From Pseudobythopirellula maris (GTDB lineage: Bacteria > Planctomycetota > Planctomycetia > Pirellulales > Lacipirellulaceae), in assembly GCF_007859945.1 (NCBI RefSeq), contig NZ_SJPQ01000004.1, positions 248,001 through 312,000 of the forward strand: 64,000 bases of DNA, written 5' to 3'. The first letter of the stretch is position 1. Each line of letters begins with the position of its first letter. The notes beneath the pieces are model-generated. The model was not told the origin of the DNA, searched no databases, and saw only the letters and a program-made list of their open reading frames with translations. Position numbers and translations under genes: made by a program. Below are positions 38,597-55,983 of the stretch, one piece after another.

Positions 38597-38608
38597 ATTC
38601 GGGGCGGA

Positions 38609-39287: not shown

Positions 39288-39316
39288 CCACTAGCCCGGC
39301 GGGTCGGCACGAAAAA

Positions 39317-39348
39317 GCCCGGCCCCGCGGACCAGGCGGAAGCCGGGC
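39317..39348. promoter_or_regulatory. Hairpin in leader of 39368 gene
   Basis: GCCCGGC (39317-39323) and GCCGGGC (39342-39348) form a 7-bp stem with an 18-base loop, preceded by AAAAA. On the minus strand that would read as stem plus T-run, so it could stop antisense transcription; on the plus strand it lies in the leader 19 bp before the ATG and 7 bp before the ribosome binding site. Confidence 0.4.
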
Positions 39349-39367
39349 AAATCGAAAGGAATCAGCA

Positions 39368-39897: not shown

Positions 39898-42002
39898 TCG
39901 CCGAAGTGAATGGGGTCGCCACCGTCCGCAAATTGTTCGATTCTCACCTGCGAGAGCTAGCCGAGTCGGGCATCGACCAAGCCACCGCCGAGGCGGCCGG
40001 CGTCTATTCGGAGCACGACGCTAAGAAATTGGCGGCGCTGGTCGGGTGGAAAAGCTGGCCACAACGGTACGGGCACGGGCTTGTGTTCGAGTACCGCGAT
40101 CTTGACGGCAACCTGCGGTTCTGCCGCGTGAAGCCGGAACGACCGCCCGAGCGGAACGGCAAGCCGGCCAAGTACCTGCAACCTGGCGGCGAGAAGTCAC
40201 GAGCCTACTTCCCGCCCGGCGTCAGTTCGCGTCTCGCTGGCGACGGCGTCGAGGTGGTCATCACAGAAGGCGAGAAGAAAGCCCTTTCCGCGACCAAGCA
40301 CGGGTTCTCGACGATCGGGCTCTCGGGTGTCTGGAATTTCAAGCCGGGCGGACGGGTGAGCGTGCTGCTGCCCGACCTCGAGCGGATCAACTGGCACGGC
40401 CGCAAGGTGTTCATCGCCTTCGACTCCGACTCCACGGAGAACGCATCGGTCGCTTCGGCCGAACAAGTCCTGTCTGCGACGCTCAAGAGTAAGGGCGCCA
40501 TCGTCAAAGTGGTTCGCATCCCCGCCAGCAAGCCGGGCGACAAGCAGGGGCTCGATGACTTCATCGTCAGCAGCGGCGCCCCGGCACTGCGGAAGTTGAT
40601 GGACGAGGCCGGCGAGCCGGAGCCGGTCGACCCGGGCACGCTCCGTGGCTCAATCGCCGACATCGACCCGTCCGACGTGGCACGAATGTTCCTCAAGTCG
40701 CTCACCGTCGACGAACTGCCGAGGCTTAGATTCTGGCTCGGCGAGTTCTGGCACTGGTCGGGTTACAGTTACCACAAGACGCCCGATCACGACCTCAGGG
40801 CCAAGCTGGTCGAGTACATGGACCGCGAGTTCCTCGGCGTGAAACGGGGCCACGTTTCGGACGTGCTGGAGCACTTGAAGTCCCAGACGCTTCTGCCCGC
40901 TCACCGCACGGCTCCGTGCTGGCTCGACCTGCCCGACGCCAAGCGGCCCGATCCGAGCGAGTGCGTGGCGACACGCTCGGGCATCGTTCACCTGCCCGCG
41001 TTCGTCGACGGCTCATCCAATCACCTGATCCCCGCCACGCCGAGATACTTCTCGACCGTAGCGGCCGACTACGCGTTCGATCCCAAGGCCCCGATGCCCA
41101 AGCACTGGCAGGCGTTCCTCGGGTCTCTGTGGGCGAATGACCCGCACAGCATCCAAACCTTGCAGGAGTGGTTCGGCTATTGCCTGACGGCCGACACACG
41201 GCAGCAGAAGGCCCTTCTCGTCATCGGTCCCAAACGGAGCGGCAAGGGGACGATCGCACGTGTTCTCTCGGGTCTGATCGGCGAGGGCAACGTCGCGGGG
41301 CCCACGCTGTCGAGCATCGCCACCAACTTCGGCATCTGGCCACTGATCGGCAAGCCGCTGGCCATCATTTCCGACGCCCGCTTCTCGTCTCGCCTCGATT
41401 CCGCCGTGGTGGTCGAGCGGCTGTTGAGCATCACCGGTGAGGATCGCCAGACGATCGACCGGAAGAACATGCAGCCTATCGAGTGCAAGCTGCCGACCCG
41501 GTTCATGATCCTGACCAACGAGCTGCCGAGGCTCAGGGATTCGAGCGGTGCGTTCGCCAGCCGATTCATCGTTCTGAACACGCCGGTCAGCCACTTCGGG
41601 GCCGAGGATCACGGTCTCACCGATCGGCTGTTGGGTGAGCTGCCCGGGATCTTCTGTTGGGCGGCAGCCGGCTGGGCTCGTCTCAGGGCTCAGGGCCGGT
41701 TCACCGTGCCACAATCGACCGAGGGGCTCGTCAGCCAACTGGCGGACCTATCGAGCCCCATATCGGCGTTCGTTCGGGATGCGTGTGTGGTCGGAGCCGA
41801 CGAGCGGGTGAAGGCCAATGACCTGTTCAAAGCCTGGAAGGACTGGTGCGAGGAAGCCAACCAGAAGCCGGGAGACGCCCCCCGTTTCGGTCGCGACCTC
41901 AGCGCCAACGTTCCCAGCGTGACCCGCATTCGAGGGCGTGAAGGCAATGAGCGACCCTATTTGTACACCGGTATCGGACTCGATTCGGATTTTAGGTCCT
42001 AG
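39894..42002 (+). CDS. Replication protein: TOPRIM-like primase plus SF3/D5-type helicase
   Basis: 702 residues from ATG 39894 (overlaps previous stop). The N-terminal 240 residues hold a DUF3854-type TOPRIM-like domain: VVITEGEKKALSATKHG (Glu motif) and KVFIAFDSDSTEN (D-x-D motif). The C-terminal 300 residues are a P4/D5-family helicase with Walker A GPKRSGKGT (about 443-451), Walker B-like PLAIISDARF, and sensor RFMILTNELPRL. Such proteins start replication of phages, satellites and plasmids by priming and unwinding at the origin. The last codons run into a repeat array at 41994-42105 that could be that origin. Confidence 0.88.
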   Translation: MIAEVNGVATVRKLFDSHLRELAESGIDQATAEAAGVYSEHDAKKLAALVGWKSWPQRYGHGLVFEYRDLDGNLRFCRVKPERPPERNGKPAKYLQPGGEKSRAYFPPGVSSRLAGDGVEVVITEGEKKALSATKHGFSTIGLSGVWNFKPGGRVSVLLPDLERINWHGRKVFIAFDSDSTENASVASAEQVLSATLKSKGAIVKVVRIPASKPGDKQGLDDFIVSSGAPALRKLMDEAGEPEPVDPGTLRGSIADIDPSDVARMFLKSLTVDELPRLRFWLGEFWHWSGYSYHKTPDHDLRAKLVEYMDREFLGVKRGHVSDVLEHLKSQTLLPAHRTAPCWLDLPDAKRPDPSECVATRSGIVHLPAFVDGSSNHLIPATPRYFSTVAADYAFDPKAPMPKHWQAFLGSLWANDPHSIQTLQEWFGYCLTADTRQQKALLVIGPKRSGKGTIARVLSGLIGEGNVAGPTLSSIATNFGIWPLIGKPLAIISDARFSSRLDSAVVVERLLSITGEDRQTIDRKNMQPIECKLPTRFMILTNELPRLRDSSGAFASRFIVLNTPVSHFGAEDHGLTDRLLGELPGIFCWAAAGWARLRAQGRFTVPQSTEGLVSQLADLSSPISAFVRDACVVGADERVKANDLFKAWKDWCEEANQKPGDAPRFGRDLSANVPSVTRIRGREGNERPYLYTGIGLDSDFRS

Positions 42003-42105
42003 AGGTCCTAGTCCTTTCCTTTGCACGCGAAGCGAATCATGTCACCCGTACATACATATGCCCCATTAGAGGTGCAATGGTCAGGTCCTAGGACCTCTAG
42101 GACCT
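41994..42105. repeat. Five-copy AGGTCCT repeat array, candidate replication origin
   Basis: AGGTCCT occurs at 41994, 42003 and 42083, and its complement AGGACCT at 42090 and 42099. Each pair is spaced 9 bp. The 16-bp arm at 41994-42009 is perfectly inverted at 42090-42105, and 42083-42096 is a perfect 14-bp palindrome. The array spans the stop codon of the replication gene and the start of the next small gene. Iteron-like repeats beside a replication initiator are the usual form of a plasmid or satellite origin; a regulatory hairpin is the other option. Confidence 0.65.
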
Positions 42106-42308
42106 ACGTCAATCCGTTCAAGCAACGCATCGCAAAACGATTGGCACGCCTCGGCGGACCACACCGAGCGAGCACCGCAAACGACGACCGAATCCACACA
42201 GCTGACCAAGCGGCCATCGACGCCGCACGAGAGCGAGCCGACCCGCACGGCTTCAAGGCCGAGAGCTACAGCCTGGCCGCCCTTGCCGAGCCCGAGACGC
42301 CGTTCTAG
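42039..42308 (+). CDS. Small hypothetical protein downstream of replication gene
   Basis: 89 residues from ATG 42039 (the frame also has TTG at 42021). Basic middle part (NPFKQRIAKRLARLGG) and a polar tail. Part of its N-terminal coding region coincides with the AGGTCCT repeat array, so the coding status is uncertain. No family recognised. Confidence 0.4.
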   Translation: MSPVHTYAPLEVQWSGPRTSRTYVNPFKQRIAKRLARLGGPHRASTANDDRIHTADQAAIDAARERADPHGFKAESYSLAALAEPETPF

Positions 42309-42420
42309 CCCATAAAGAGCCGGCCAGTGCGCCGCAATCGCACAGCCACCAACTAAACCGCACGAAACAGCGGGGCAGATTAGCCCCCCCACGAATCGAA
42401 CCCCGAACGAAGGAACGATA

Positions 42421-42816
42421 ATGACCCCTCAGATAGCACGGAACCACTACTCCAAAGCAGACGGCATGTTCGCCGCGATTGCTGCTCGGCACGGAGTCAC
42501 GGAGCCTACCACCACTGGGCAACGCCCTGATCCCAGAAGCCATCTGACGCCAGCCGAGCTGATTTTCGGCAGCCTACCGCCTCGGAATATCAAGCCGAGA
42601 ACCGTCGACAGAACGCGACCGCGGCATTCTGGCGACGAGATTCTAAGAACGCTCCTTGAGGGCACCGGAGTACCAACCGGAAAGGATGCCTCGGATCGGT
42701 ACGCTCGATTCTTCCAAGGAGTCAAAGCGATCGCCGAGAGTAGCCCGGCGATCGATGACTCGGAGAAGCTTCATAAAATCATCGAGCTAATCGCCCGATG
42801 CGAGCCCAGCGAATAG
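42421..42816 (+). CDS. Hypothetical protein of the integrative element
   Basis: 131 residues from ATG 42421, with GAAGGAACG upstream as ribosome binding site. Pattern: basic Pro-rich middle (PPRNIKPRTVDRTRPRHSG) between two helical ends (KADGMFAAIAARHG; FQGVKAIAESSPAIDD). No signal peptide, membrane helix or known motif. It lies between the repeat array and the coiled-coil gene on the same strand. Confidence 0.6.
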   Translation: MTPQIARNHYSKADGMFAAIAARHGVTEPTTTGQRPDPRSHLTPAELIFGSLPPRNIKPRTVDRTRPRHSGDEILRTLLEGTGVPTGKDASDRYARFFQGVKAIAESSPAIDDSEKLHKIIELIARCEPSE

Positions 42817-42888
42817 GACGCTTGCAAGAGTTACCGGGGAGCCGGTTCAAGATTGCCCGACCTGGCTGAAATGGTGTGAGGCCCTGCG

Positions 42889-43854
42889 ATGAATTCCGCT
42901 GATCCCTTTCTCGATGTGTACTCGCAAATTGTCCAATGGCCTCCGGACAACTTGGGCAAACACGACTTACTTACCATCCGCGCGTCATTGCTGAAGCTGC
43001 TCAGGCTGTCGCGCGAATACCCACCCGAGCAAAACAAGGAACCGATAATGTCTACAGCAACGAAAGCGAATCCATCACAGAGCGTTGACCTGGGAAACGT
43101 TGAAGAGTTGATCCGAAGTGAAGGCAAGCGGAAGTGCCACGACCTGGCTATCCAAATCGTTGAAGGCGATAAGGTCGAAGTAGCCGAGATTGGCGCGGCG
43201 CTGTCACCAGCCGGCTGGACTGCCGACGACTTCACGGCCCACGTTCGCAAGCTGCAGAAACGAAAGCAGGCCATCGAAGATCAGGCCTTCGCGCAGGAGC
43301 TGGACGCCGGGATGGATGCCCTTTGTGAAAATGCCCGCATAGCCAGCGAGGCAGTCGAGGCCGAGCGGGAGGCGCATCGCAATCGTATTGACCCACTGCT
43401 TGAAGTCTCCAAGCAGGCCCACGATGAACTCCGGAAAACGAAAGAGCGGGTGCAAGCACTACGGCTTAACTCCGTCCTGATCTTGGCTGAAACACTCAGG
43501 TCATCGGACAAGGCGAAGCTAGCGAGTCTTTCCGACTCCCAAACCAGACTGCACACCGCTTGGCTTGAGGCCGAGGGTGACCGTGAAGGACTGGAACGCG
43601 ACGCCATCGCTTTGGAGGCAACGGTCAATAAGTTGGGAAATAAGATCAAAGCCCTCGCCGAGAACCCTAACACAGAACGGGCCCGTGAGAACTGCGAGCG
43701 GCAGTTGGCGGAAGCAAAAGCCGATCGCGACCGAGTCCAGGCGGAGTCAAACGCGATTGCCGATCTGCGACAGCGGAGCCAACTAGCCGCCGAAGAAAAG
43801 AGCCGATCGGAAGCGGCGATCGCTAGCGATTGGCGGCTCGTCTCCGTGGAATAA
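42889..43854 (+). CDS. Coiled-coil protein
   Basis: 321 residues. After a short N-terminal part it is dominated by charged heptads (about 110-310: VRKLQKRKQAIEDQAFAQEL, ARIASEAVEAEREAHRNRI, DHELRKTKERVQAL-like, ARENCERQLAEAKADRDRVQ), so it should form a long coiled coil. An internal ATG (43048, MSTATKANP) is an alternative start with a cleaner beginning. No enzymatic motif. Could be a structural or scaffold-like protein of the element. Confidence 0.65.
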   Translation: MNSADPFLDVYSQIVQWPPDNLGKHDLLTIRASLLKLLRLSREYPPEQNKEPIMSTATKANPSQSVDLGNVEELIRSEGKRKCHDLAIQIVEGDKVEVAEIGAALSPAGWTADDFTAHVRKLQKRKQAIEDQAFAQELDAGMDALCENARIASEAVEAEREAHRNRIDPLLEVSKQAHDELRKTKERVQALRLNSVLILAETLRSSDKAKLASLSDSQTRLHTAWLEAEGDREGLERDAIALEATVNKLGNKIKALAENPNTERARENCERQLAEAKADRDRVQAESNAIADLRQRSQLAAEEKSRSEAAIASDWRLVSVE

Positions 43855-43932
43855 ATGAACGCGGCGAAGGCGGTATGGGAGCCGGGGCTGATAGTGCCAG
43901 CTCCCGCCGCCTAGCCAACAAAGGGGCTTAAA

Positions 43933-44337
43933 ATGGCGAATAAGAGCAAACGAAAAGGCGAAGATTCGGCAGTTCTCGCATTGGCGGGCGGGGCTGACGT
44001 TCGCCACGCCGCGGCTACTGCGGGAATCGGCGAGCGAACATTGCACCGCTGGCTTAAGACCGATCCCGCTTTCCGCCAGCGTGTTGATGAGGCACGAGAC
44101 GAGCTATTCCGATCGACGTTCGGCGCCTTGGTAGCTTCAGGCGCCAAGGCAGTGGAGAAGCTCACTAAGCTACTGAATGCCGAATCCGAACAGGTTCAAC
44201 TTGGCGCTGCCCGTGCAATCCTCGAGCACATGAGCAAGGGCCGTGAGCAAGTCGAGCTGACCGAGCGCGTCGCCGAGCTAGAACGACGCATAACCGAAGG
44301 GAGGGCTACGTGCGGGAACGACTTACGAGCCGCCTAG
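43933..44337 (+). CDS. Terminase-small-subunit-like HTH protein
   Basis: 134 residues; ATG 43933 follows AAGGGGC. The N-terminal part GGADVRHAAATAGIGERTLHRWLKTDPAFRQRV is a helix-turn-helix of the kind seen in phage terminase small subunits and transposase-like HTH proteins, and the rest is a coiled helix (KAVEKLTKLLNAESEQVQLG, ERVAELERRIT). Phage small terminases recognise packaging sites. No large terminase is nearby, which fits a satellite that borrows a helper phage; alternatively it is a regulator. Confidence 0.65.
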   Translation: MANKSKRKGEDSAVLALAGGADVRHAAATAGIGERTLHRWLKTDPAFRQRVDEARDELFRSTFGALVASGAKAVEKLTKLLNAESEQVQLGAARAILEHMSKGREQVELTERVAELERRITEGRATCGNDLRAA

Positions 44338-44513
44338 AGCGGCTGCAGCAGCAATTAGACCGCGAAAGGGGCCAGACTGAGGGCGGGGCGCTCGTGTGCG
44401 TCTACACCGCCAGTGAGGGCCTAGAAAAGGCCCAAGAGCGAATGCCGGGGGCGATCTACTTTCTGCCGGACAACGGCCGAGACGATAACCCGTCGGCTGA
44501 AGTCAGTTGCTGA
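44310..44513 (+). CDS. Small hypothetical protein overlapping the terminase-like gene
   Basis: 67 residues from GTG 44310, with AGGGAGG five bases upstream, starting inside the last 28 bp of the preceding gene. Sequence begins RERLTSRLERLQQQLDRERG (helix) and continues LVCVYTASEGLEKAQERMPG. No family recognised. The good ribosome binding site and overlap support coupling to the gene at 43933. Confidence 0.55.
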   Translation: MRERLTSRLERLQQQLDRERGQTEGGALVCVYTASEGLEKAQERMPGAIYFLPDNGRDDNPSAEVSC

Positions 44514-44527
44514 GTGCCGTTGGGTGC

Positions 44528-44569
44528 GCCGCAATCGCTTGTGGCCCACGCTTTGGCCCTGATTGCGGC
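44528..44569. promoter_or_regulatory. 9-bp inverted repeat downstream of 44310 gene
   Basis: GCCGCAATC (44528-44536) and GATTGCGGC (44561-44569) form a perfect 9-bp stem around a 24-base loop that holds GTGGCCCAC, itself self-complementary. There is no T-run, so it is not a plain intrinsic terminator. The rest of the gap up to 44787 holds nothing I can name. Confidence 0.45.
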
Positions 44570-44787
44570 ACGGGTTGGATTCCTCAGGGGACTACTCGGC
44601 CCAGCAGCAGCGTTCCACGCTGTCGACAATTGCCGGTTCTTTGACAACTGAATTATCAGGATGCGGGCGGGGCCCACAAAAGGCGCCCGCCTCGTGCCCT
44701 GGCCCCAGGTTGTTGTGGCGCCGTTGCGGATCGCACAGGCGGGGGTAGATTGCCGCCCCGGATTCCTTCACCCCAGGCGGCGCCCCG

Positions 44788-44988
44788 ATGTTTTGCGTAT
44801 CCGACGACGATCCCGACGAGCCACTCCGCCGAGCCGCTCTCGACCTCGTGCGCGACCGACAGCGGATGCTTGTGTGCGACCTAGGCCGCATGCTCGGCAC
44901 CAGTCGCTTCGACCTGGATCGGGTTCTCGATCGACTTGAGTCGTGCGAGTTGGTGGGGCAGCGTGGCGGGTTGGTCTGGCCGCGGTGA
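44788..44988 (+). CDS. Small winged-helix-like protein
   Basis: 66 residues from ATG 44788. RRAALDLVRDRQRMLVCDLGRMLGTSRFDLDRVLDRLESCELVGQRGG has the helix-turn-helix-wing order of small DNA-binding proteins. Only a weak ribosome binding site is visible. It faces the tail-collar-like gene on the opposite strand. Could be a regulator of the element, but the assignment is by fold impression. Confidence 0.45.
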   Translation: MFCVSDDDPDEPLRRAALDLVRDRQRMLVCDLGRMLGTSRFDLDRVLDRLESCELVGQRGGLVWPR

Positions 44989-45009
44989 TGGCGATTGAGA
45001 AGGGTGTCC

Positions 45010-45603
45010 CTACCGCATTCGAATGATGAATCGCACACCGGCATGCGGCGGCATCCAAGTGGCTTGCTCAGCTTGGACGCCGTCTTTCTTAACAGTGTGC
45101 GCTAAGCCGCTATCTATTCTGTGGCGGTGCTGACCTTCTCCAGTACCTTCTTCATCGGTCTCAATGTGATCGGCCCCGTCGGTGTGCTCACCATCGCCCT
45201 GAGTTACTGAATATACGTTATTCTTACTTGGCCAATCAGGCCCTCTCAATTCGATTCCGACCGTATGCCCCTGTACGGCCAATGTTGGAATATTGACATC
45301 ATGCCGATGCCCTGCTTCGCCCAAAGCATCACTACCGAGACTGTCGCCCTCGGAGACGCCAGCCAGCATTCTGCCATCCATATTAGGGACGGGCTTACCT
45401 ACTAGGTGCGCCGGCACCCATCTTTGATCAGGCCACTTCGTTTTCCCATCTGCCCAAACATAACCATCCGGAAGGGCGTGCCCGAAATACGGCAGCATTA
45501 CCCCCCGCGGGACTGTTGGAACCCGGTCCGGAGCTTGGCCAGACGTTGGAGCTGTGAATATAACAGCAAGAAACAAAGCGGCAACGAAATCAAGATTCCT
45601 CAT
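45010..45603 (-). CDS. Secreted phage tail-collar-like protein
   Basis: 197 residues. A signal peptide (about 1-23, AALFLAVIFTAPTSGQA) is followed by a segment like phage tail-collar domains: VPRGVMLPYFGHALPDGYVWADG, then PNMDGRMLAGVSEG and GEAGHRHDV, the G-P-x-L-P-x-G...P-N-x-x-G-R...G-x-x-H-x-H pattern of collar domains. A second His-rich stretch (EGQHRHRIDSG) and a closing PPHAGVRFIIRM complete it. Collar domains normally lie in tail fibres; here it carries its own Sec signal, so it would act outside the cell. Confidence 0.6.
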   Translation of the reverse strand: MRNLDFVAALFLAVIFTAPTSGQAPDRVPTVPRGVMLPYFGHALPDGYVWADGKTKWPDQRWVPAHLVGKPVPNMDGRMLAGVSEGDSLGSDALGEAGHRHDVNIPTLAVQGHTVGIELRGPDWPSKNNVYSVTQGDGEHTDGADHIETDEEGTGEGQHRHRIDSGLAHTVKKDGVQAEQATWMPPHAGVRFIIRMR

Positions 45604-45924
45604 CGCACAACCTCCAGAATAGAGAGCGTGACCAATGGGCGCAAGGTATCAGCTCGCCGTGGTAATGCAACTATCTCAGATATAATTCAAGTCGCATCTC
45701 TGAACTAGCTCATGCGTTATCGCATCCCGGTGCCAACAGATGGCACCCCCCATTACTACTACTACTCTGCTGATCTTGTGCCCTGCTGCGCGAATCAGCC
45801 AAGCGTGGCGAGCTGATGCCGGCCAGCCCGCCTGGCAGGGGGAAGAAAAAATCCCTGACCCTGGGCCAGGGTTTTAGCGACCGTGCCCTAGCCAAGTTCC
45901 GCAAGGTCTCCAAGAGCAAGGAAC
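45604..45924. promoter_or_regulatory. Intergenic region with two short hairpins
   Basis: About 320 bp without a supported gene. GGTGCCA (45729-45735) and TGGCACC (45741-45747) make a 7-bp stem with a 5-base loop, followed by four TAC/ACT units. At 45858-45872 ACCCTG-GGC-CAGGGT forms a 6-bp stem followed by TTTAG. These may end or control transcription on either side. Confidence 0.4.
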
Positions 45925-46155
45925 ATGGCGGCGAAGCTTGAGCCGCATTGTGCGGTGAAGGCTAAGGAGCGGCGAGACTCAAAGCTCAAACAATACAACC
46001 GTTGTGGAAACGATTCCACAACGGAGGAAGGCCGTGCCCGCGACGAGGCCGGCGCTCTGTACGAGGTGAGTGAGCGGAGCGTGTCGAAGCCGGTGGCGGC
46101 GTTCATCGAGCGCAATAAGGACGGCGACGAGTGGAAAGACGGCGGCGGGGGGTGA
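45925..46155 (+). pseudogene. Possible ParB-like gene fragment
   Basis: A 76-codon frame whose end (EGRARDEAGALYEVSERSVSKPVAAFIERNKDG) resembles the helix-turn-helix part of phage/plasmid ParB-like partition proteins, which read R-A-R-D-x-A-x-x-x-x-V-S-x-x-S-V. The usual N-terminal nuclease-like domain and C-terminus are missing, and a 10-bp perfect hairpin (46000-46023) cuts through the frame. This looks like a remnant rather than a working gene. Confidence 0.35.
46000..46023. repeat. Perfect 10-bp inverted repeat
   Basis: CGTTGTGGAA (46000-46009) and TTCCACAACG (46014-46023) are exact complements around a four-base loop ACGA. No T-run follows. Such a tight palindrome can be a protein-binding site or a cruciform; it lies inside the ParB-like fragment. 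Confidence 0.55.
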
Positions 46156-46163
46156 GCCAAGGA

Positions 46164-46577
46164 TCATGAGTTACTGTAATCCACTCTTGCAAAGAACATG
46201 TTCTTGCAACCGGGGCAGCGGCAATTGCCTTCTTTGTTTTTACCTTGAACTATGGACAACCTGACGAGCTGCTTTTTCGTATCCATGCAGTAGGTGCAGA
46301 AAATGCCGCCAGCGATGCCGGCTTCATTTTCGTCGTCTAAGCGATACGTCCCCCGGTCGATGCGAAGGTACTTCCGAATGTCTTTGAGTTCTTGTAAATC
46401 GGTGAGTTTCTCACTGAGGACAAGGTTCTCTTGCTTGAGATCAGCGGCCTCCATCTTCACATCAGCCACCGCGTTCATTAGCTCCGCAATCAACGTTTTA
46501 TGCTCGGCGTCGCGCAGCGAGTCCCTAAGCTTGACCCCAATGTCCCAGACTTTTTGAGCGCCGCCGGTGATATCCAT
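46164..46577 (-). CDS. Coiled-coil zinc-ribbon protein
   Basis: 137 residues from ATG 46577 (MDITGGAQKVWDIG); the longer frame upstream is not supported. A coiled coil (about 20-75, LIAELMNAVADVKMEAADLK, LVLSEKLTDLQELKDIRKYL) is followed by a zinc ribbon: FCTYCMDTKK and CRCPGCKNMFF give two C-x-x-C knuckles about 27 residues apart. This type of short protein, coiled coil plus ribbon ending in an aromatic, is a frequent unnamed gene on phages and plasmids. It probably binds nucleic acid or protein. Confidence 0.72.
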   Translation of the reverse strand: MDITGGAQKVWDIGVKLRDSLRDAEHKTLIAELMNAVADVKMEAADLKQENLVLSEKLTDLQELKDIRKYLRIDRGTYRLDDENEAGIAGGIFCTYCMDTKKQLVRLSIVQGKNKEGNCRCPGCKNMFFARVDYSNS

Positions 46578-47360
46578 GCATCTGATCCCGAACAAGAGTG
46601 AGGAGTGACAGGCCGATTGTCGTCTTCGGACGGGCGGGCAGCAAGTTGGCCAAGACCCCCAACCCAGGGTGAGGGATTTGGCCGAGCCCTGAGCCGCCCC
46701 CCTAACGCACCAATCCCCAAGACGACCTAGACACCGGCCCGCCGCGTTTGGGCCCCAGACGCGGCGACTCAGAATGCCGTTTTCGGGGCGACGTTGACAA
46801 ACCGACCATCGAACCGCCATGATTCGGGTGTCAAAGCTACTTCGGAAACTGGCAACGAGGTTGTCGGTTTTCTACTCTTGGCGCCGCTGGCGTCTGAGCA
46901 CTACTAAGAACCATGTCGAATTCTCTACTAAAAACAGTGCGCGTGGCTGCGCGGGTGTCCCCTGAGGCAACGATGGGGGGGTGGTTTAGTAGCCGCCTGA
47001 CAACGCCAGTGCAGCCACGCGCTCTCTTTCCTCTCGCCACTCTGGCGGAGGATGAAAGTCTCTCACGATCAGTACGCATGCGCTCACAGCTACGGCGATA
47101 GATGCCGACTACGTTGCCGTAATCCAAGTGCTGCCCGGCGACCGGGTACTCGTGTCGACCCGTGGCCTGCGCCGGGTCATCGATGATCGGACCGGCGCCG
47201 TGCTGCTATTCGGACTGCGAGAAGCCCGTCCGCGCGATCCGTGCGGCGTCGACCGACGAGCTACAAACAATCGAGGGGCTGATTCACTGACCGCAACGCT
47301 GGCCGCTCCGATTGGGGCGGCCGGCTTTCCAACCTCAATGCAAACACACACAGGAATTCC
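46578..47360. other. Long intergenic stretch before the integrase
   Basis: About 780 bp with no secure gene. A plus-strand frame from GTG 47128 to 47373 (LPGDRVLVSTRGLRRVIDDR...) could encode a short beta protein, but it runs into the integrase start and lacks a site. CCCAGGGTGAGGGATTT at 46663-46679 is the near-perfect inverse (one mismatch) of 45849-45865. The integrase has AGGAATTCC just before its ATG. Confidence 0.35.
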
Positions 47361-48704
47361 ATGGCAAGTCTAAGCAAAGAGAGGGGACGACCCCGCAAGT
47401 CAGGCCCCCGCCGTGACGGCTGGCGCGTGCTGGTGTTCGTCGACGGGGATCGCAAGACTATCCGACTGGGGGCGATACCCAGAAAACAGGCCGAGGCCAT
47501 GCTGCGGCATATCGAGGCCCTGGCGGCTTCGCTGCTGGATCACAGCGCCCCGCCAGAGGCCACGGCCCGCTGGCTTGCGGAGCTGGACGAGAAGATCAGA
47601 GAACGGATCGTGCGGGCCAGCCTGGCCCAGCCTCGGCATAAGCCCAGGGGCGTGACCGTGGGAGAGCTGATCGACCACTATAAGCGTCTTAAGTATCAGA
47701 GTGATGGGGCGGGGGGGTACGCTCAGGGCACGATCAACGTTCACGAAGCCGCCTTCGCGTCGATGCTCGGCCACTGGCCGGCCGATACGGTGGTTGCTGA
47801 TATTTCTGGCGGCGACTGCGACGACTTCGTCGACTGGATGAGCCAGAAGGGGCTCGCCGAGGCAACCATCCGGAAACGGTCTGCGATCGCTAAAAAGCTC
47901 CTGGGCTACGCGGTCAAGAAACGCTGGCTGGACCGGAACCCCTACGAAGATTCGGGCGTGAAGACTGCGAGCGTGGGCAATTCGGCCAGGCAGGTGTTCA
48001 TCCCGCCAGCGGATGCCCTGAAAGTCCTTCAAGAGTTGCCAGACACGCAATGGCGGCTGCTGTTCGTCCTGAGCCGATTCGGTGGCCTCAGGGTGGGCAG
48101 CGAGCCACGGCAATTGAAGATTGGCCACGTGAACGCCGCGGCCGGCACGCTGACCGTCCCAAGCCCCAAGACGAAGCGTTACCAGGGAAAGGCAGAACGA
48201 ATCATCCCGCTCTGGCCCGAGTTAGAGCGGCTTATCACCAAACGATTCCACGAAATGGAGGAAGGGGAGGAAATGCTGCTTCCGTTCCTGCGGGGCCGGA
48301 CAGACGCCTCCCTCCGAAAACCCATGTTCGCGGCCATCCAGCGGGCAGGCCTCCAACCGTGGCCGCGACTCTGGCACAACCTGCGAAGCTCACGGCAGAC
48401 GGAACTGCTGGGGCCGCACTACCGTTGCAACATGGTTGAAGTCTGCGCGTGGCTGGGCAACAGCGAGGCCGTGGCGAACCGGCACTACGTGCAGGCGACA
48501 GCCGACGGATTCTCGCGTGCGGCGCAAATTGCGGCGCTGCCAGAGACCGCATGGGGCGACAGCGAGCCCGAAGCGGTCGAAGGGCAGGGGGCCAAACGCC
48601 CTGTTATCGTCGCTCCTGCGCTGTCCGGCGGTTCCTCGCAGAAAAAAACGATAGCCGAGGCGGGACTCGAACCCGCACGAGGGTTACCCCCCACCGGATT
48701 TTAA
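47361..48704 (+). CDS. Tyrosine recombinase/integrase (element 1)
   Basis: 447 residues; ATG 47361 with AGGA five bases upstream. N-terminal arm-binding segment (KSGPRRDGWRVLVFVDGDRK), SAM-like core-binding domain (about 95-190), then the catalytic domain: Arg in FGGLRVGSEP, Lys in SPKTKRYQGK, H-x-x-R in LWHNLRSSRQTEL, and the nucleophile Tyr in VANRHYVQ. These cut and rejoin att sites. The last 17 residues (IAEAGLEPARGLPPTGF) are read from the antisense strand of the tRNA-Leu remnant, and its stop TAA lies in the anticodon loop. The gene directly adjoins the right repeat, as expected for an element integrated in a tRNA. Confidence 0.92.
   Translation: MASLSKERGRPRKSGPRRDGWRVLVFVDGDRKTIRLGAIPRKQAEAMLRHIEALAASLLDHSAPPEATARWLAELDEKIRERIVRASLAQPRHKPRGVTVGELIDHYKRLKYQSDGAGGYAQGTINVHEAAFASMLGHWPADTVVADISGGDCDDFVDWMSQKGLAEATIRKRSAIAKKLLGYAVKKRWLDRNPYEDSGVKTASVGNSARQVFIPPADALKVLQELPDTQWRLLFVLSRFGGLRVGSEPRQLKIGHVNAAAGTLTVPSPKTKRYQGKAERIIPLWPELERLITKRFHEMEEGEEMLLPFLRGRTDASLRKPMFAAIQRAGLQPWPRLWHNLRSSRQTELLGPHYRCNMVEVCAWLGNSEAVANRHYVQATADGFSRAAQIAALPETAWGDSEPEAVEGQGAKRPVIVAPALSGGSSQKKTIAEAGLEPARGLPPTGF
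48651..48672. repeat. Right attachment-site repeat (tRNA-Leu 3' end)
   Basis: Identical to 34010-34031 over 22 bases, same orientation. It is the 3' end of the tRNA-Leu half at 48652-48709. With the left copy it brackets element 1. Confidence 0.75.
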
Positions 48705-48709
48705 GTCCG
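48652..48709 (-). pseudogene. tRNA-Leu(UAA) 3' half (att remnant)
   Basis: On the minus strand this reads from the anticodon stem to the discriminator base: stem/loop with CTTAAAA (anticodon UAA at 48703-48701), a long class II variable arm, T-arm GCGGG-TTCGAGT-CCCGC, the acceptor strand CTCGGCT and A. The 5' half (acceptor AGCCGAG, D-arm) is not found upstream, and the outermost anticodon-stem pair does not match, which marks the junction. A 3' half beginning in the anticodon stem is the typical block carried by elements that use the anticodon region as att site. No CCA is encoded. Confidence 0.8.
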
Positions 48710-48870
48710 CGATTCTTGTATTTCTTTTGCATTGCTTTTGGACACTTAATGCGTACCTGCGCCACTCTAAACGGCGTTTTGGTCGATCGATGCCTACGGT
48801 CGCATTGGAGTAGCGGGTAGCTTGGATCGCCCGTATTGTTCCGAATTTGTTCCGAGTTGCTTCATCCACT

Positions 48871-48915
48871 GGATTGTGATTCCGAAGGTCGGGGGTTCGA
48901 GACCCCTCAGCCACC
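48871..48915 (+). pseudogene. tRNA-His(GUG) 3' half (att remnant)
   Basis: Plus strand: anticodon loop TTGTGAT (anticodon GUG, 48876-48878), variable loop AGGTC, T-stem/loop GGGGG-TTCGAGA-CCCCT, acceptor strand CAGCCAC and discriminator C (48915), as expected for tRNA-His with C73. The 5' half, which should begin GTGGCTG, is missing; the bases before 48871 do not pair with the anticodon stem fully. It lies 173 bp before the second integrase, matching an att remnant of that recombinase. Confidence 0.78.
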
Positions 48916-49087
48916 CTTTATCTGGCAACGACTTACGTCGATTGGCCCCCCGGCCCCTTGGGCCACCTGACACGGATCTGACACACCGTGGCGCCCGTGT
49001 GGCGGTCACATTGGTGGCCCGTCATTGGGCAGTAGGAAAGGATGATTGCGTCACAAGAACGCTCTCTTTCGCTCCCACTGCCCCCAA

Positions 49088-50320
49088 ATGGCCAGCCTCG
49101 AAATCGACCCCCGTTCGGGTCGCTACCGTGTCCGGTTCCGCTACGCCGGCCAGGAGTACAAGCGGTCGCTCCGCACCAAAAGCCGACCCGTCGCCGCCGC
49201 CTCTCTCGGGCAGGTAGAGGAAGCTTTGCGGATGATCGAGATGGGGCTGGTTGAGCTGCCCCAGGATGTGGAGGAGGGCGCTTTTATCGTCTCGGGGGCC
49301 CGGGTCCGGAAAGCCAGGCGGCAGCCGTCAAAAGTGCAGACGTTGGACGACCTGTTCCGCGTCTATCAAGCTGAACTCCCGACCGGGTCGAAGGAGCCGC
49401 GGACGCTCGCCGGCGAGCGTTTGCACTTCAAGCACCTGCTCCGGCACTTGAAACCCAAGACCCGGCTGGCCGCGATCACGCCACGCACCGTGCAGGGTTA
49501 CGTCGAACTCCGCTCCAGAGACCAGTACGCCAAGCGATCAATCACCCCCGACACGATCAAGAAAGAGATCACGACCCTCCGGTTGGTGTGGAACTGGGCG
49601 AAGCGGCAAGAGTACGTCGAGAACCCGCCACCGATCAGCCACGTGATCTACCCGAAGCGGGATGAGAAGCCCCCCTTCCAGACCCTGGCGGAGATCCAAC
49701 GGGCCGTCAGCGGGGGCAAGTTGTCGAAGGCTCAAGAAGCCGCTCTTTGGGAATCGCTCTTCCTAACCCGCCCCGAGGTCGATCGCCTGCTCGACCACGC
49801 CTCAAAGCAGGCCGGGCTTCCGTTTGTCTACCCGATGTTCGTGCTCGTGGCCCACACCGGGATGCGACGCAGCGAGCTGCTCCGCGCCGAGAAGGCCGAC
49901 TTTGACTTTGAGGGCCGCACCATCTTAGTCCGAGAGAAAAAGCGTTCGCGCAAGCACGCCCTGAGCTTCCGCCGGGTTCCGATGACGAATCTGCTGGGCC
50001 GGGTGTTCAAGCAGTACTTCGCGGAACACCCATCCGGTCCGTACGCACTGACGCGAGACAATGATCAGCCGTTGACCACCGATGCAGCCGATCACTTCTT
50101 CGAGGTCGCCTTGAAAGGTTCGGCTTGGCAGGCGGTCCGGGGCTTCCATGTCTTCCGGCACTCTTTTGCGTCGAACGCCATGGCAGAGGGCATCGACCAA
50201 CGCATGATCGACGCCTGGATGGGCCACCAAACCGAAGAGATGCGGCAACGCTACCGTCACTTGGCCCCGACCCAGCAGCAAGCCGCTATCGACGCCGTGT
50301 ACCGAGACGAAGCGTCTTGA
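49088..50320 (+). CDS. Tyrosine recombinase/integrase (element 2)
   Basis: 410 residues from ATG 49088 (MASLEIDPRSGRYRVRFRYA); an upstream in-frame TTG-type start at 49046 is less likely. An arm-type N-terminal domain (YKRSLRTKSRPVAAASLGQV), core-binding domain (about 90-180) and a complete catalytic set: Arg in HTGMRRSELLRA, Lys near REKKRSRKH, H-x-x-R in FHVFRHSFAS, WMGHQT, and Tyr in RQRYRHL. It is only distantly similar to the other integrase in the window. The tRNA-His remnant upstream is its probable attachment site. Confidence 0.93.
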   Translation: MASLEIDPRSGRYRVRFRYAGQEYKRSLRTKSRPVAAASLGQVEEALRMIEMGLVELPQDVEEGAFIVSGARVRKARRQPSKVQTLDDLFRVYQAELPTGSKEPRTLAGERLHFKHLLRHLKPKTRLAAITPRTVQGYVELRSRDQYAKRSITPDTIKKEITTLRLVWNWAKRQEYVENPPPISHVIYPKRDEKPPFQTLAEIQRAVSGGKLSKAQEAALWESLFLTRPEVDRLLDHASKQAGLPFVYPMFVLVAHTGMRRSELLRAEKADFDFEGRTILVREKKRSRKHALSFRRVPMTNLLGRVFKQYFAEHPSGPYALTRDNDQPLTTDAADHFFEVALKGSAWQAVRGFHVFRHSFASNAMAEGIDQRMIDAWMGHQTEEMRQRYRHLAPTQQQAAIDAVYRDEAS

Positions 50321-50702
50321 GACCTGAAACTTGCGCCGTAAAGAGTCTCTAGTATCGACGACGGCCGGCGAGAGTCTCGGTCGGTTCGACATCGGTCACA
50401 AGGTACGACAGCGAGAAGCACGCTGCTTGATCAACCGCTACGGCGTTCTCGTCTCCCGCGAGCGTAGACTGCCTTGCGTCGAAGCACCGTGCGGTGGAGA
50501 TGGCTAGTGAGTCAACACAATGGCTCTGAAGCGTGACGAACACTCCTCGGCGTGTCGGGCCGACGCAGGTGAAAGCGGTCGCGAGTTGTACTACCGGATC
50601 GTCCGTAGCTCGACACTAGGGGCAAGTCCGCTATAATGCGTGCCTCCGTTGGATGCCTATTCGTAAAGGAGACGTCCATTCGCTACTCAACGCACTGATC
50701 TT
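50321..50702. promoter_or_regulatory. Leader region of the PHP-ATPase gene
   Basis: About 380 bp without a gene. It holds the promoter at 50610-50637 and a ribosome binding site AAGGAG (50666-50671). The only ATG near that site (50653) opens an 17-codon frame that stops at 50706. Short minus-strand frames here look like chance. Confidence 0.45.
50610..50637 (+). promoter_or_regulatory. Sigma70-type promoter
   Basis: TCGACA (50610-50615), a 16-bp spacer and a perfect TATAAT (50632-50637). Transcription would begin near 50644 and run into the PHP-ATPase gene. Such a consensus-like promoter is rare in this GC-rich DNA and suggests the gene came from elsewhere or is strongly expressed. Confidence 0.7.
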
Positions 50703-53513
50703 CTGAAGCAGCTCGTCGCCGGGGGTACCAACGGAAACCGTTGGTATAAGGTCAACCTCCACGCACACGGCCTCGGGCATTCCGCCAAGGACATGGTCTC
50801 CGAGGCACGTAAGGCCGAGATCGACATTCTTGCGATCACGGACCATCAGACATTCGACGCCTACGACAAAGTCTACGCGGAGTCGAAGACCGAAGGCCGA
50901 GCACTGACCGTGCTGCCAGGCATCGAGATCACGACTCACGAAGGCGTCCACATCATCGCGATCTTCCCGCAGGAATACTCTGCGAGGCAACGCGAGCACT
51001 TCATCGGCTGGCTGGAGATCCCCGGCACTGGCGATACCAAGATCGGCTCGAAGAAAACGGTCGATGAGGTACTCCAGCATATCGTGGAAGAGGGCGGAAT
51101 CGTCGTTGCCCCGCACCCGTGGACGCCGAATATTGGCTTCCTGTCCTGTTCGCCGAAGATACAGACTCGCGTTAATTGGCTAGAGACCGGACACATCAAG
51201 CTAATTCAGGTCAAACAGGACGCGCACGCCAACAAGGTCACTTACATCGGCCACGACAAGGACGGCACTTGGGTCAACCGCTACGTCCTCAGCTCGGCGT
51301 CACCTAAGCAGATAGCAGAGAGCACCTACTGCTTGGCTCCGTTCAACCGTAGCGACGCACACAAGCCGTCAGAAATTGGCGACGGATGTTCGTGGTTCCG
51401 CATGGAAGCTCCGACCATCGACGGCCTACGACAGGTGGCTTGCGAGCCTCGCACCCGTATCTCACTAGATGAACCGCTGGCTGCCGTCCACGATTGCATC
51501 CTCGCCGTCCGTGTCCACGGCGGGTACTGCAAGGATCAGACGTTCTGCTTTAACGAATCGCTGAACTGCATTGTCGGTGACAACCACGCCGGCAAGTCAG
51601 CCGTCTTCGACTTTATCCGGTTCGTGCTCGGCCACACTGAAGACCCGACCGACAGTAATTCGCGGCTGACACTGCTGCGGCGCTTGGACAGTATCCTGCA
51701 GGCCGAAAACAAGGTCGAGCTGTTCTTGCGCTCCAACGGCGAGTACTACGTTGTCGAGCGTACGTTCCGACCAACTACGAACGGCAGGGACGTGACCGGC
51801 TGTTGCGACCTAGCGATTGCCTACGTGTACGACGAAGAAAACGAGAATTTAGAACCGGCAGACGACTTTTCCTTCCAGATCGAGGTCTACGAGCAGGGTC
51901 GGATCGGTCTCCTTCGCAGTGACATCGACAGGCAGCTGGAAATGCTCGACGAGTTCGCAGAACTCAACAGCACGAAGGCGAATCGCGATGAACTTTTCGG
52001 GAAGCTGACGACCAATGCCACTGCCCTGAAGCCGCTCAACGCTGAGCGTGAGACACTGAAGACCGAGATCGCAGCGCTCAAACGGCTGGAGGAGGAGCTG
52101 GAGGGCTTCAACGAGCAGCTGCCCGACGAAGCAACGGAAGGCGAATGGGGCAACGCGGTTGCCGTTGTGGATGGGATCACCGGCGCCGTGGAAACTATCA
52201 CACTCGCGGCAGCGCAAATCCCAGACCCCGCCGTCCCGAATGAGCTGGCCGACGAAGACGACGTACTGGTCCAGCTCTTCTCTCAATCGCTTCCGGCCGT
52301 ACCGGCTGAGAACGTAGCCGACCGGGATGCCATCGAGGCTTGGCGTGAAGACGCCCAGAAGGGTCTAAAAGAGATCGAGACCACCCGAGCGCAGCTGGTG
52401 GGTGCTATCAAGAAGCTCAGCGCTACTCATCAGTCGCATCTGAAGCCTTGGAAGGCGAAGCACGCCGATCACGAGAAAGAGATTGCCGAGCAACTGAAGA
52501 AGAGCGGCGTCGAATCACCGACCCAATTACGCCAACAGATCACGTCACACCGCGCGAAGATCCGCAAGATCAAGGAGAAGGATCAGCCCCGGCTGGGGAG
52601 CGTGGAGACGGAGATCAGCCGACTGGAGAATGAACGAGATACGCTGCGCACGCAACTGAAGGCCGCGAACACCACGATTTCGAAGACGCGCTCAGAAAAG
52701 GCCGAGGAACTGAACGGCACCTTCGATAAGAAGATCATCGTCAACGTGGAGGGGGGTGGCGACCAACGAGAATACCTTGAATCGCTGCGTGAAATCTGCG
52801 ACGAGATCACCAACCAATACCAGCGAATCCAGAAACGCGAACAGCACCTGCAAGCCATTGCTTCAAACGTGACACCGTTGGAGCTGGCCGAGGCTATCTG
52901 CAATGACGGCAAGGTTATCAGCCGATCTGGTTCGCCGTCGTTGACCGACTTGTGCGAGATCACCAAGAACACGCAGGAAGTGCTCTGTACGATTGGGTCC
53001 GACATCGAGTTAGTCAACAAGATAGAGATCGTTGACGTTCCCGATGTACCGCGCATCAAAGTCAAACGTGAGGGCGAAGAAACCTACGCGGATCTCGCCA
53101 CCGGGCTTTCACCGGGCGAGCAGAGCGCAGCTATCCTGACGCTGGCGCTTCAGACGCGATCGCGGCCCCTCATTGTTGATCAGCCGGAAGACGAGCTAGG
53201 TTACTCGTACGTCGTCAACCTGATCGTTCCCAAGATGCTGAGGGCGAAGTTCCTGCGGCAGCTGATCGTCGTCACCCACGTCGCCAACATTCCCGTCCTC
53301 GGGGATGCCGACTACGTGATCAAGCTGGAGAATCGGCCGCACGCCGATACCGGCCGTCAGTGCGTCGTCGTTGCCGAGGGCTGCTTCGAGCGATCAGAGG
53401 TCACAACCGCCGTGGTGCAGCTCGAAGGTGGTGAGCAAGCGTTCCGGTTTAGACAGCACCGATACTCGCTCACAAGGCTGAGCGAAGTCGTGCCAGCCAA
53501 GGCCGTGCAATAG
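50703..53513 (+). CDS. PHP-domain ATPase (TrlF-like), SMC/RecN-type
   Basis: About 936 residues. The N-terminal PHP phosphoesterase fold has metal motifs HAHG (about 50757-50768), DILAITDHQTFDAYDK, LPGIEITTHEGVHIIAIFP and GIVVAPHPW. Next come an ABC/SMC-type ATPase head with Walker A VGDNHAGKS, a long coiled coil (about 380-740), and the head's second half with signature GLSPGEQSAAILTLAL and Walker B PLIVDQPEDEL. TrlF-like proteins join a PHP nuclease or phosphatase to an ATPase. The frame opens at 50667; its only start-like codon before ATG 50793 is CTG 50703, and starting at 50793 would remove HAH, so the true start is unsure and a frameshift is possible. Confidence 0.85.
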   Translation: MKQLVAGGTNGNRWYKVNLHAHGLGHSAKDMVSEARKAEIDILAITDHQTFDAYDKVYAESKTEGRALTVLPGIEITTHEGVHIIAIFPQEYSARQREHFIGWLEIPGTGDTKIGSKKTVDEVLQHIVEEGGIVVAPHPWTPNIGFLSCSPKIQTRVNWLETGHIKLIQVKQDAHANKVTYIGHDKDGTWVNRYVLSSASPKQIAESTYCLAPFNRSDAHKPSEIGDGCSWFRMEAPTIDGLRQVACEPRTRISLDEPLAAVHDCILAVRVHGGYCKDQTFCFNESLNCIVGDNHAGKSAVFDFIRFVLGHTEDPTDSNSRLTLLRRLDSILQAENKVELFLRSNGEYYVVERTFRPTTNGRDVTGCCDLAIAYVYDEENENLEPADDFSFQIEVYEQGRIGLLRSDIDRQLEMLDEFAELNSTKANRDELFGKLTTNATALKPLNAERETLKTEIAALKRLEEELEGFNEQLPDEATEGEWGNAVAVVDGITGAVETITLAAAQIPDPAVPNELADEDDVLVQLFSQSLPAVPAENVADRDAIEAWREDAQKGLKEIETTRAQLVGAIKKLSATHQSHLKPWKAKHADHEKEIAEQLKKSGVESPTQLRQQITSHRAKIRKIKEKDQPRLGSVETEISRLENERDTLRTQLKAANTTISKTRSEKAEELNGTFDKKIIVNVEGGGDQREYLESLREICDEITNQYQRIQKREQHLQAIASNVTPLELAEAICNDGKVISRSGSPSLTDLCEITKNTQEVLCTIGSDIELVNKIEIVDVPDVPRIKVKREGEETYADLATGLSPGEQSAAILTLALQTRSRPLIVDQPEDELGYSYVVNLIVPKMLRAKFLRQLIVVTHVANIPVLGDADYVIKLENRPHADTGRQCVVVAEGCFERSEVTTAVVQLEGGEQAFRFRQHRYSLTRLSEVVPAKAVQ

Positions 53514-53515
53514 AA

Positions 53516-53542
53516 GGCGGAATCAGCCGTGGCTGAACCGCC
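53516..53542. terminator. Two-part hairpin after the PHP-ATPase gene
   Basis: GGCGG-AAT-CAGCC-GT-GGCTG-AA-CCGCC gives a 10-bp stem with a small internal loop, right after the stop codon at 53511. There is no T-run, so termination would need another factor. It lies between convergent genes and may serve both. Confidence 0.45.
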
Positions 53543-53670
53543 AGTCGAAGCCGCAGACGTATCAGTCTGACGTACTCTCATACTATGGCAAGTAGCAGAG
53601 GTGCGAACGTACACAGGACGTAAACGCCGAGGTCGCTTGTCACCGCTTAGTGCCACTGGAGAGACATTCG

Positions 53671-55152
53671 TCACTCCGTCGTATCGACCCCGCAACCGAC
53701 GGCTCGCTCTAGCTGAGCGATGGCCCCGGCGAGCGTGGCTTTGGTCCGGGCGACTTGTAGTTCGATCATCAGCAGTTCGGTGAAGCCGGCGGTGACCTCA
53801 CCGAAATCGACGAGGCGGCCCCGGTAGTCGGCCGAGGCGAGTTCGAGAGCCCGTTTAGATCGGGGCATCAGGCGATTCTCGTACAGGTCGAGTTGCTGCT
53901 GGGCTGCCTGCGCCTGTTCGTTGTAGCGGCGGATGCGGCGGAATGTGTCGTCGCGTGTATCGGCGTACTCGCGTGACGCGGCCGCGAAGGCAGCCGACGC
54001 TTCGTTAATCCCCGCTCGGATCCGATCTCGCCAAATCGGCAGCGTCAGCCCCACCGCGAAGCTGATGTTGTCGTGCCCGTTGGCGACTGGGGAGATGGCG
54101 TCGCTCTCGGTGATGGTTTGCCAGCCAACTCCGAACGTGAAATCAGGACGCTTCTGCAAGCAGGCAAGCTCTTGCTTCTGCCGATCACGTGAGATCGCCC
54201 ATCGCTGCTCGTTCAGGCTGGGGTTGTATTCGAGCGCGAGTGCGAACAAGGCCTCACGTTGTTGCTCAACGCCGGTGAGGTCGATGGTCTCAATCGGCTC
54301 GATGCCTTGCGCGCTCGGCTGCTGCGTCAGGGCGGCGAGGTCGGCCTGTGCGAGCGCTTTTTGCTCGGTCAGGCTGATCAACTTCGAGTCGAGATTGTCA
54401 ACTTGCAGTGAAGCACGCAGCACGTCCTGCTGACTCCCGCCGGCGGCGTTTCGGGCCTCGGCGAGCTTGACCAGTTCGATCGCGATCTCACGGTTCCGCT
54501 CGGTAATCCCGATCGCGCGATCGGCGAACCAGAGTTCGTAGTAGGCAAGCCGGACCAGCTCTTCGATCTCCAGCTCGGCCTGCCTGATCTTCGTTGCGGC
54601 GATTTGGGCCTCCCTTTCGGCGATCGCCCCTTTCACTTCGCGCTTAGCTGGCCACGGGTACTTCTGCGACAGCGACATCGTGTTGCCAGCCCGACCGCCC
54701 GCTGTTTGCAGAGCCTGATCCGAGATCGGAAAGAATGTGTTTGACAGCATCGGATCATCGAGCGAACGGGCTTGCTCCGGCCGCCAGGTTGCCGAGGCGT
54801 ACCGTGCTCGGGCCGCTCTCACGCGGGGGTGCTGAACGATTGCTACGGCGACCAGTTGCTCGACCGGTTGTCGGGCCGGGGGGGTTGGCGTTGAGCTGAG
54901 CCGAATCACCCCGGGCTGGACCGGTTCTAGGGTAGGTCCCCCATCTGGGAGGCTTACAGCCACCGCCTCATCCCGTTCCGCCGCGGACTCGAAATCAACG
55001 AGGACCGCCCGATGGTCAGCAGATGGCGTGGTGGGCTCGACGCAGGCGTCCCCTTGCCCCAGGGGCGCACGGCAGCCAGCCAAGAGTGAGAGTCCCGCGA
55101 CGACGATTCCTAGCGTGGATAGGCTCCACACGCCCTGTTCTTGCTTATCCAT
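53671..55152 (-). CDS. TolC/CusC-type outer-membrane efflux lipoprotein
   Basis: 493 residues. Lipobox LLAGC places the lipid-modified Cys at about 27, as in CusC/CzcC. The rest is two outer-membrane-efflux repeats with long helices: VAIVQHPRVRAARARYASATW, IRQAELEIEELVRLAYYELWF, RLMPRSKRALELASADYRGRLVDFGEV and QVARTKATLAGAIAQLERAVG. It would form the trimeric outer-membrane channel for the adaptor and pump encoded from 55984. It is transcribed away from them, sharing the region at 55153-55278 that carries a CsoR-type operator. Confidence 0.9.
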   Translation of the reverse strand: MDKQEQGVWSLSTLGIVVAGLSLLAGCRAPLGQGDACVEPTTPSADHRAVLVDFESAAERDEAVAVSLPDGGPTLEPVQPGVIRLSSTPTPPARQPVEQLVAVAIVQHPRVRAARARYASATWRPEQARSLDDPMLSNTFFPISDQALQTAGGRAGNTMSLSQKYPWPAKREVKGAIAEREAQIAATKIRQAELEIEELVRLAYYELWFADRAIGITERNREIAIELVKLAEARNAAGGSQQDVLRASLQVDNLDSKLISLTEQKALAQADLAALTQQPSAQGIEPIETIDLTGVEQQREALFALALEYNPSLNEQRWAISRDRQKQELACLQKRPDFTFGVGWQTITESDAISPVANGHDNISFAVGLTLPIWRDRIRAGINEASAAFAAASREYADTRDDTFRRIRRYNEQAQAAQQQLDLYENRLMPRSKRALELASADYRGRLVDFGEVTAGFTELLMIELQVARTKATLAGAIAQLERAVGCGVDTTE

Positions 55153-55206
55153 GCGTTCGGAATGGCTATTGAGACAGTCGCCGCGAGGTGCTCAAGCGAA
55201 CTACAC

Positions 55207-55250
55207 TTGCTGTGGTGGGGCATCCTGCCGATAATACCCCCCAGAGGTAT
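55207..55250 (+). promoter_or_regulatory. Promoter with CsoR-type operator
   Basis: TTGCTG (55207-55212), 17 bp, then GATAAT (55230-55235) form a sigma70-type promoter on the plus strand. ATACC (55234-55238) and GGTAT (55246-55250) form an inverted repeat around a C-rich centre, matching the known shape of CsoR copper-repressor operators (GC-tract flanked by TAC/GTA arms), and it overlaps the -10 box. A CsoR gene lies at 63081-63368, so metal-responsive repression is a reasonable inference. Confidence 0.6.
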
Positions 55251-55278
55251 CTGCGTTACCAACCTATCGACCGGTCCG

Positions 55279-55806: not shown

Positions 55807-55983
55807 GTCGCTAGCGCCCCAGGTGCGCGCCGAGCCATCCGCCGGCGCAACGACGACACGCCTTTTCTGGGCGGTCGTATCACAGGGAAGCCTTCAGTTG
55901 GCTGCTGCGCGCCGCCACGAATCCGTTGGTCACGATCGAGAACTTGATCGTGACCTGCTCTCCCGTCTCGTGAGACCTTACGC

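Follow-up and report, generated by a model that had tools for sequence, protein, structure and literature searches.

An island at tRNA-Leu(UAA) of Pseudobythopirellula maris that was probably retargeted from tRNA-His

What brings the 3' halves of two different tRNA genes to within 161 bp of each other, each with an integrase gene on its outer side? This arrangement lies in the window, the whole stretch of 64,000 nucleotides analysed here, which corresponds to C4:248001-312000 of the Pseudobythopirellula maris genome (5.07 Mb, 6 contigs; C3 and C4 denote contigs, and coordinates without a contig are those of the window). An earlier note, made from the letters alone, had described a tRNA-Leu(UAA) half on the minus strand and a tRNA-His(GUG) half on the plus strand, had read each as attP-like, with the 3' half followed by an integrase, rather than as a simple attL or attR, and had suggested that elements had inserted in tandem, that a single composite element has two integrases or that two elements had fused.

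The tRNA halves, island A and element B

The two halves, the gap between them and the flanking integrases are all as the earlier note had described them, and both halves are broken in the anticodon stem, on its 5' strand. The Leu half matches the intact tRNA-Leu(UAA) gene (C4:362294-362379, minus strand), 65.6 kb away, at 58 of 58 positions, and the His half, from 48871 on, matches C3:564405-564454 at 50 of 50 positions within the query, the intact tRNA-His(GUG) gene being C3:564376-564449 (plus strand). These identities far exceed chance, and the strong divergence from the genomic tRNAs that would have spoken against the halves is absent. Complete tRNA genes were likewise sought, and ARAGORN found none within the window; the only Rfam match, over the Leu half, was a sub-threshold one to tRNA-Sec (27.7 bits, cut-off 47). 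The halves and the elements that they delimit are as follows.

34004..34031, minus: tRNA-Leu 3' remnant reaching from the T-loop to 8 nt beyond the gene, 28 bp, 96% identical to the tRNA-Leu 3' end and flank
34032..48651, no strand: element B (about 14.6 kb), between the Leu remnant and the Leu half, in tandem with A at tRNA-Leu(UAA); int1 at its tRNA-proximal end
47361..48704, plus: int1, tyrosine recombinase of B, with a PF13102 SAM-like domain and the R..HxxR..Y pattern in alignment
48652..48709, minus: tRNA-Leu(UAA) 3' half, at once the attR of A and the tRNA-proximal att of B, 58/58 identical to C4:362294-362351
48710..64000, no strand: share of island A that the window covers; the 58-bp Leu repeats delimit A, which ends at C4:362293 (114293 in window coordinates)
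48871..48915, plus: tRNA-His(GUG) 3' half, apparently the relic core of an old His attachment site, identical to C3:564405-564449

Island A spans 65,584 bp from 48710 to C4:362293 and has the make-up of a tyrosine-recombinase tRNA island: it is enclosed by direct repeats of the tRNA 3' end that agree at 58/58 positions, and the integrase gene int3 (C4:360846-362108, minus strand) adjoins the intact tRNA-Leu at its far end, outside the window. Joining the flanks of A in silico restored a full tRNA-Leu. The int3 frame is open and contains the R, HxxR, GH and Y motifs; its product is related to that of int2, the integrase beside the His half (44% identity), and its closest relatives (72-73%) are likewise linked to tRNA-Leu(UAA). 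Since Leu repeats occur at both ends of A and int3 lies beside the intact tRNA-Leu, the Leu half is the attR of A and not an attP. Given the full repeats, both arms (see below) and an open gene with its motifs, int3 is predicted to excise A through the two 58-bp Leu repeats.

According to Pfam, A carries a TrwC relaxase, a VirD4-type coupling protein (T4SS-DNA_transf), ArdC, RepC and a Toprim protein, together with CusA/CusB-type efflux, multicopper oxidase, P-type ATPase and MacB-type genes as cargo. It also holds a TacA antitoxin/acetyltransferase pair. No VirB4 was matched among the scanned ORFs of A longer than 600 aa, and with a relaxase and a coupling protein present A would best be called an integrative mobilizable element with copper/metal cargo. 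Elsewhere in A (C4:350313-354901), two adjacent protein-kinase genes share an exact 1,087-bp duplication (C4:350615-351701 and 352828-353914).

On the other side of the Leu half lies element B. The 28-bp Leu remnant, at which the GC content begins to drop, is probably its outer att, so that intact tRNA-Leu, A, Leu half, B and Leu remnant follow one another in the order of a tandem accretion. Another genome of the survey described below (G018) also has a tandem at tRNA-Leu(UAA), made up of an int3-type integrase (72% to int3) and a gene of the int1 type, with their order reversed. The tRNA-Leu copies bounding B and this second tandem indicate that A and B are ordinary tandem neighbours, and the suggestion of tandem insertion thus applies to them. 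The last codons and the stop of int1 (48652-48704) come from the antisense strand of the Leu half; int1 relatives in several genomes likewise end at a tRNA-Leu copy, the G018 relative (C1:1721791-1723023) ending inside an intact tRNA-Leu(UAA) at 1721755-1721841. B also encodes a DUF3854/DUF5906 primase-helicase-like protein (39876-42002) and an HTH_17 protein (38670-39287), as in phage-satellite-like islands.

Arm sites around the His half

The stretch from the gap through int2 to the first genes of A contains the following features.

48710..48870, minus: P arm of int3's attachment site, 161 bp, holding the int3 arm-site pair at the family-typical spacing from the Leu half
48838..48855, minus: putative int3 arm-site pair, TCGGAAC-N4-TCGGAAC; other copy at C4:362215-362232, at the opposite end of A
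48967..48984, plus: putative int2 arm-site pair on the P' side, CTGACAC-N4-CTGACAC, an exact pattern match common to the Botrimarina P' arm and the C3 scar (both described below)
49091..50320, plus: int2, tyrosine recombinase of the His element; ATG just before 49091; PF00589, E=3.4e-24; 98% to the integrase beside the Botrimarina tRNA-His
50793..53513, plus: large AAA/SMC-type ATPase gene, related to the Ppl model, in a variable slot beside int2
53671..62352, no strand: metal efflux genes (OEP, CusB-type, CusA-type, TRASH/YHS protein; Pfam), the start of the backbone common to Botrimarina

The assignment of these pairs relies on a survey of relatives of int2 and int3 collected from 397 genomes of the order. 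Of these relatives, 48 have immediately upstream an intact tRNA gene, for Leu, His, Asn, Gln, Pro or Val. In 43 of the 48, a direct-repeat pair with a period of 11 bp was the best short repeat between the tRNA and the gene (at least 8/9 match). The sequence of the pair varies among family members, as expected for integrase-specific arm sites, and we infer that the pairs are bound by the integrases. On the P side, four stacked elements of other genomes have the pair at 123, 131, 133 and 143 bp from the tRNA half. Another short sequence, GACTTACGTCGATTG, was considered as an arm site and dropped; it occupies the same position in many family members and often resembles the 5' arm of a terminator hairpin. 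In two family members (G374:C452 and G125:C311; loci L160 and L174) the tRNA half is reversed and has the integrase on the side of its P arm, where the P' side is usual.

Across all 5.07 Mb of the genome, the int3 pair is present just twice, at the two ends of A. Its copy in the gap lies 128 bp from the Leu half versus 15 bp from the His half. Being int3's pair, and spaced as usual from the Leu half, it identifies the 161-bp gap as the P arm of int3; no homologues of the gap beyond its tRNA parts were among the matches listed for the 397 genomes. The 13-15 bp that separate the pair from the His core could derive from either element.

The His half is followed directly by its P' arm and its own integrase, int2, and to that extent the description as attP-like stands. 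However, no int2-type P-arm pair was found across the 160 kb of C4 examined, nor, at 0-1 mismatch, any int2-type pair elsewhere in the genome other than the P' pair of the C3 scar. By sequence, the His half thus retains its P' arm and int2 and lacks a P arm; an unsplit attP(His) was ruled out, the upstream pair being int3's. For the Leu half the description fails altogether: it is a plain attR of A that doubles as the tRNA-proximal att of B, and the integrase next to it, int1, belongs to a different element than the P arm of that half. The two halves are therefore not equivalent attP sites. If A were circularized, its attP(Leu) would, by sequence, be complete, and its attP(His) would be without a P arm.

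Within 3 mismatches, the genome contains no second His half besides the intact gene, so that nothing marks the other end of a nested intact His element, and this arrangement was rejected. With neither a P arm nor a second His repeat, int2 is not expected to excise A. What A does contain is int3 with tRNA-Leu on the outside and int2 with a His half on the inside of one outer repeat pair; neither another His half nor a P arm of the int2 type lies within it. A can thus be described as a composite island with two integration systems and without an intact inner att pair, and both further suggestions of the earlier note, a composite with two integrases and a fusion of two elements (His backbone with int2, Leu-type int3), apply to it.

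A related element at tRNA-His and the origin of A

The clearest view of what A may have been before comes from Botrimarina hoheduenensis Pla111, a member of the same family group (Lacipirellulaceae, Pirellulales by NCBI taxonomy). There, an integrase 98% identical to int2 adjoins an intact tRNA-His, and the 1.7-kb module is 93% identical in DNA; the His half itself is 93-94% identical to this locus. The far end of the Botrimarina element, with its own His half, lies on that genome's contig C4, and the DNA next to it is collinear with C4:301619-358781 of A at 75-92% identity. The element runs off the start of the Botrimarina contig C3 and the end of its contig C4, and from the collinearity the two contigs probably join into one element. 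In total, 76% of A aligns to it at a mean of 84.7%, and the DNA from 53619 onward at 92%; the shared backbone comprises relaxase, coupling protein, RepC and copper/efflux genes.

The Botrimarina element thus has the same collinear backbone, int2, His core and P' arm as A. Unlike A, it sits at tRNA-His, has its own P arm (with a pair about 131 bp from the far-end His half), lacks int3 and carries Gabija gajA/gajB in the slot beside int2, which in the window holds the Ppl-like ATPase. The C-terminal part of this ATPase (50793-53513) matches the Ppl defence model, and the gene may be a new defence gene. At its other end, the Botrimarina element reads repC, about 130 bp and the His P arm, whereas A reads repC, an FGE-sulfatase-like gene, int3, the P' arm and tRNA-Leu, with no trace of a His P arm at this repC/int3 end. 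No homologue of the backbone with int3 but without the His module was seen; around the two nearest int3 relatives, in stretches of 57 kb in G018 and 9.8 kb in G033, tblastx, which is noisy and was read for strong matches only, gave no clear shared backbone.

The simplest account is that A is a His element whose P arm was replaced by an int3/tRNA-Leu module, and we consider it probable that A is a composite mobilizable island, formerly a tRNA-His element, that was retargeted to tRNA-Leu by this addition. The repeats, the arm-site pairs, the collinearity with Botrimarina and the missing His P arm are observed directly; the order of events is our reconstruction. The ancestor would have resided at tRNA-His, with P arm, His core, P' arm, int2, a defence slot, the metal-resistance/mobilization backbone and repC. 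Its P arm would then have given way to a tRNA-Leu(UAA) module of FGE-sulfatase-like gene, int3, P' arm, Leu core and P arm, which would lead to the present state, with int3 beside the intact tRNA-Leu and a relic His half with int2 at the opposite end, 15 bp from the P-arm sites of int3. The fusion probably began with an int3 element resident at tRNA-Leu: at a secondary site next to the P arm of that element, int2 would have inserted the His element, which would afterwards have lost its own P arm. Insertion mediated by int2 gives the left junction in a single step.

The strongest competitor agrees with this account except for the role of int2: illegitimate or homologous recombination would have joined the int3 module near the His core, and the fit at the edge would be due to chance. 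The join could have occurred anywhere in 48858-48871, and to the left, apart from GGA, nothing similar to the anticodon arm of tRNA-His can be seen that might be a pseudo-attB; yet recombination by int2 would place the boundary at the crossover region of the His core, which is where it lies. We regard joining without int2 as possible, though somewhat less than an even chance, and since no empty or intermediate site was found, the two routes are not separable. A simple tandem, with the His half and int2 assigned to a distinct element H next to A, would be in keeping with the family, in which stacking at a single tRNA is common (G015, G026, G222 and G249) and of which A and B are themselves a case. 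Stacked elements, however, use the same tRNA, whereas His and Leu differ; moreover, int2 through the backbone to repC is one unit in Botrimarina, the Leu repeats enclose everything, and there is no second His half inside the island, which makes this explanation very unlikely. An assembly chimera of unrelated loci joined at the tRNA halves, each of which does repeat another genomic place, is more doubtful still, given long contigs, the collinearity of int2 and backbone with Botrimarina and int3 arm sites at both ends that fit one element.

A different possibility is that the His half still works, through the P arm of int3 or through its P' arm alone, so that A could dock at either tRNA-His or tRNA-Leu and, when integrated, recombine with tRNA-His, like the extra attP sites of tripartite ICEs. 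In keeping with this, int2 is an open gene, 98% conserved, with its P' arm sites present, and the tRNA-His locus on C3 bears a sign of recent contact. Downstream of the intact tRNA-His, identity to the window module extends over 228 bp at 99.1% (2 differences); an inserted repeat, about 100 bp long, then separates this part from 96 bp of int2, where identity is 87.5% (12 differences), and beyond these the DNA is unrelated. So sharp a change in identity suggests that the window module and an older remnant were recently in contact, by conversion or through an integration that was later lost, and no single move explains the scar. Against a working His half, there is no int2-type pair on its P side, where Botrimarina has one about 131 bp out, and the int3 pair differs in sequence and is wrong in orientation and spacing for the His half. 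We therefore judge a functional double attP improbable, and just as little or slightly less is to be given to its specific form, in which a single P arm serves both integrases in a head-to-head double attP circle (int3, P', Leu core, 161-bp P arm, His core, P', int2). If a double attP did exist, one element could dock at either tRNA gene and rearrange the chromosome between them.

In Botrimarina the His element is followed by a HerA-like gene. Its counterpart in the window's genome was found 51.6 kb further on the same strand, which indicates that the tRNA-His locus is broadly syntenic in the two genomes. The repeat that interrupts the int2 remnant (C3:564632-564729; locus L042, 10232-10329) has an 87% copy at C4:236190-236287 and is perhaps a MITE.

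Comparison with known systems

Related islands often differ in integrase and target gene, which is usually ascribed to exchange of the integration module. Island A retains both the presumed old module (tRNA-His, int2) and the presumed new one (tRNA-Leu, int3), and a relative displays what would be the state before the switch, which would make the steps readable base by base and A an unusually clear record of a change of docking site. The survey also points to a family of planctomycete integrases whose arm sites bear a recognisable signature, a pair of 11-bp period about 130 bp out on the P side, by which element ends can be assigned to integrases and such switches searched for. In the literature on retargeted islands and planctomycete tRNA islands we found no such case by title or abstract.

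Composite islands, tandem accretion and ICEs with several attP sites are already known, and A is a further composite island. Tandem accretion of ICEs, IMEs and CIMEs, as reviewed in PMC5704250, uses one shared target; A and B conform to it, being stacked at one tRNA with a copy of the 3' end between them, but a shared target does not account for the His module of A. ICEMcSym1271 of Mesorhizobium (PMC5882170) resembles A in having several tyrosine integrases and several attP types. It is tripartite, with three working att systems and the element split over three loci, whereas A is in one piece with one att complete and one half. The composite genomic island CGI48 of Shewanella putrefaciens CN-32 (PMC8978831) lies at a tRNA gene and holds GI21, whose relatives use another site: CGI48 and A are both cases of an island inside an island, and capture through a secondary att site is proposed for both. 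GI21, however, keeps both att sites and can excise, whereas the inner element of A appears to have lost one att arm; and GI21 is a passenger part of CGI48, whereas the inner element of A supplies most of the island.
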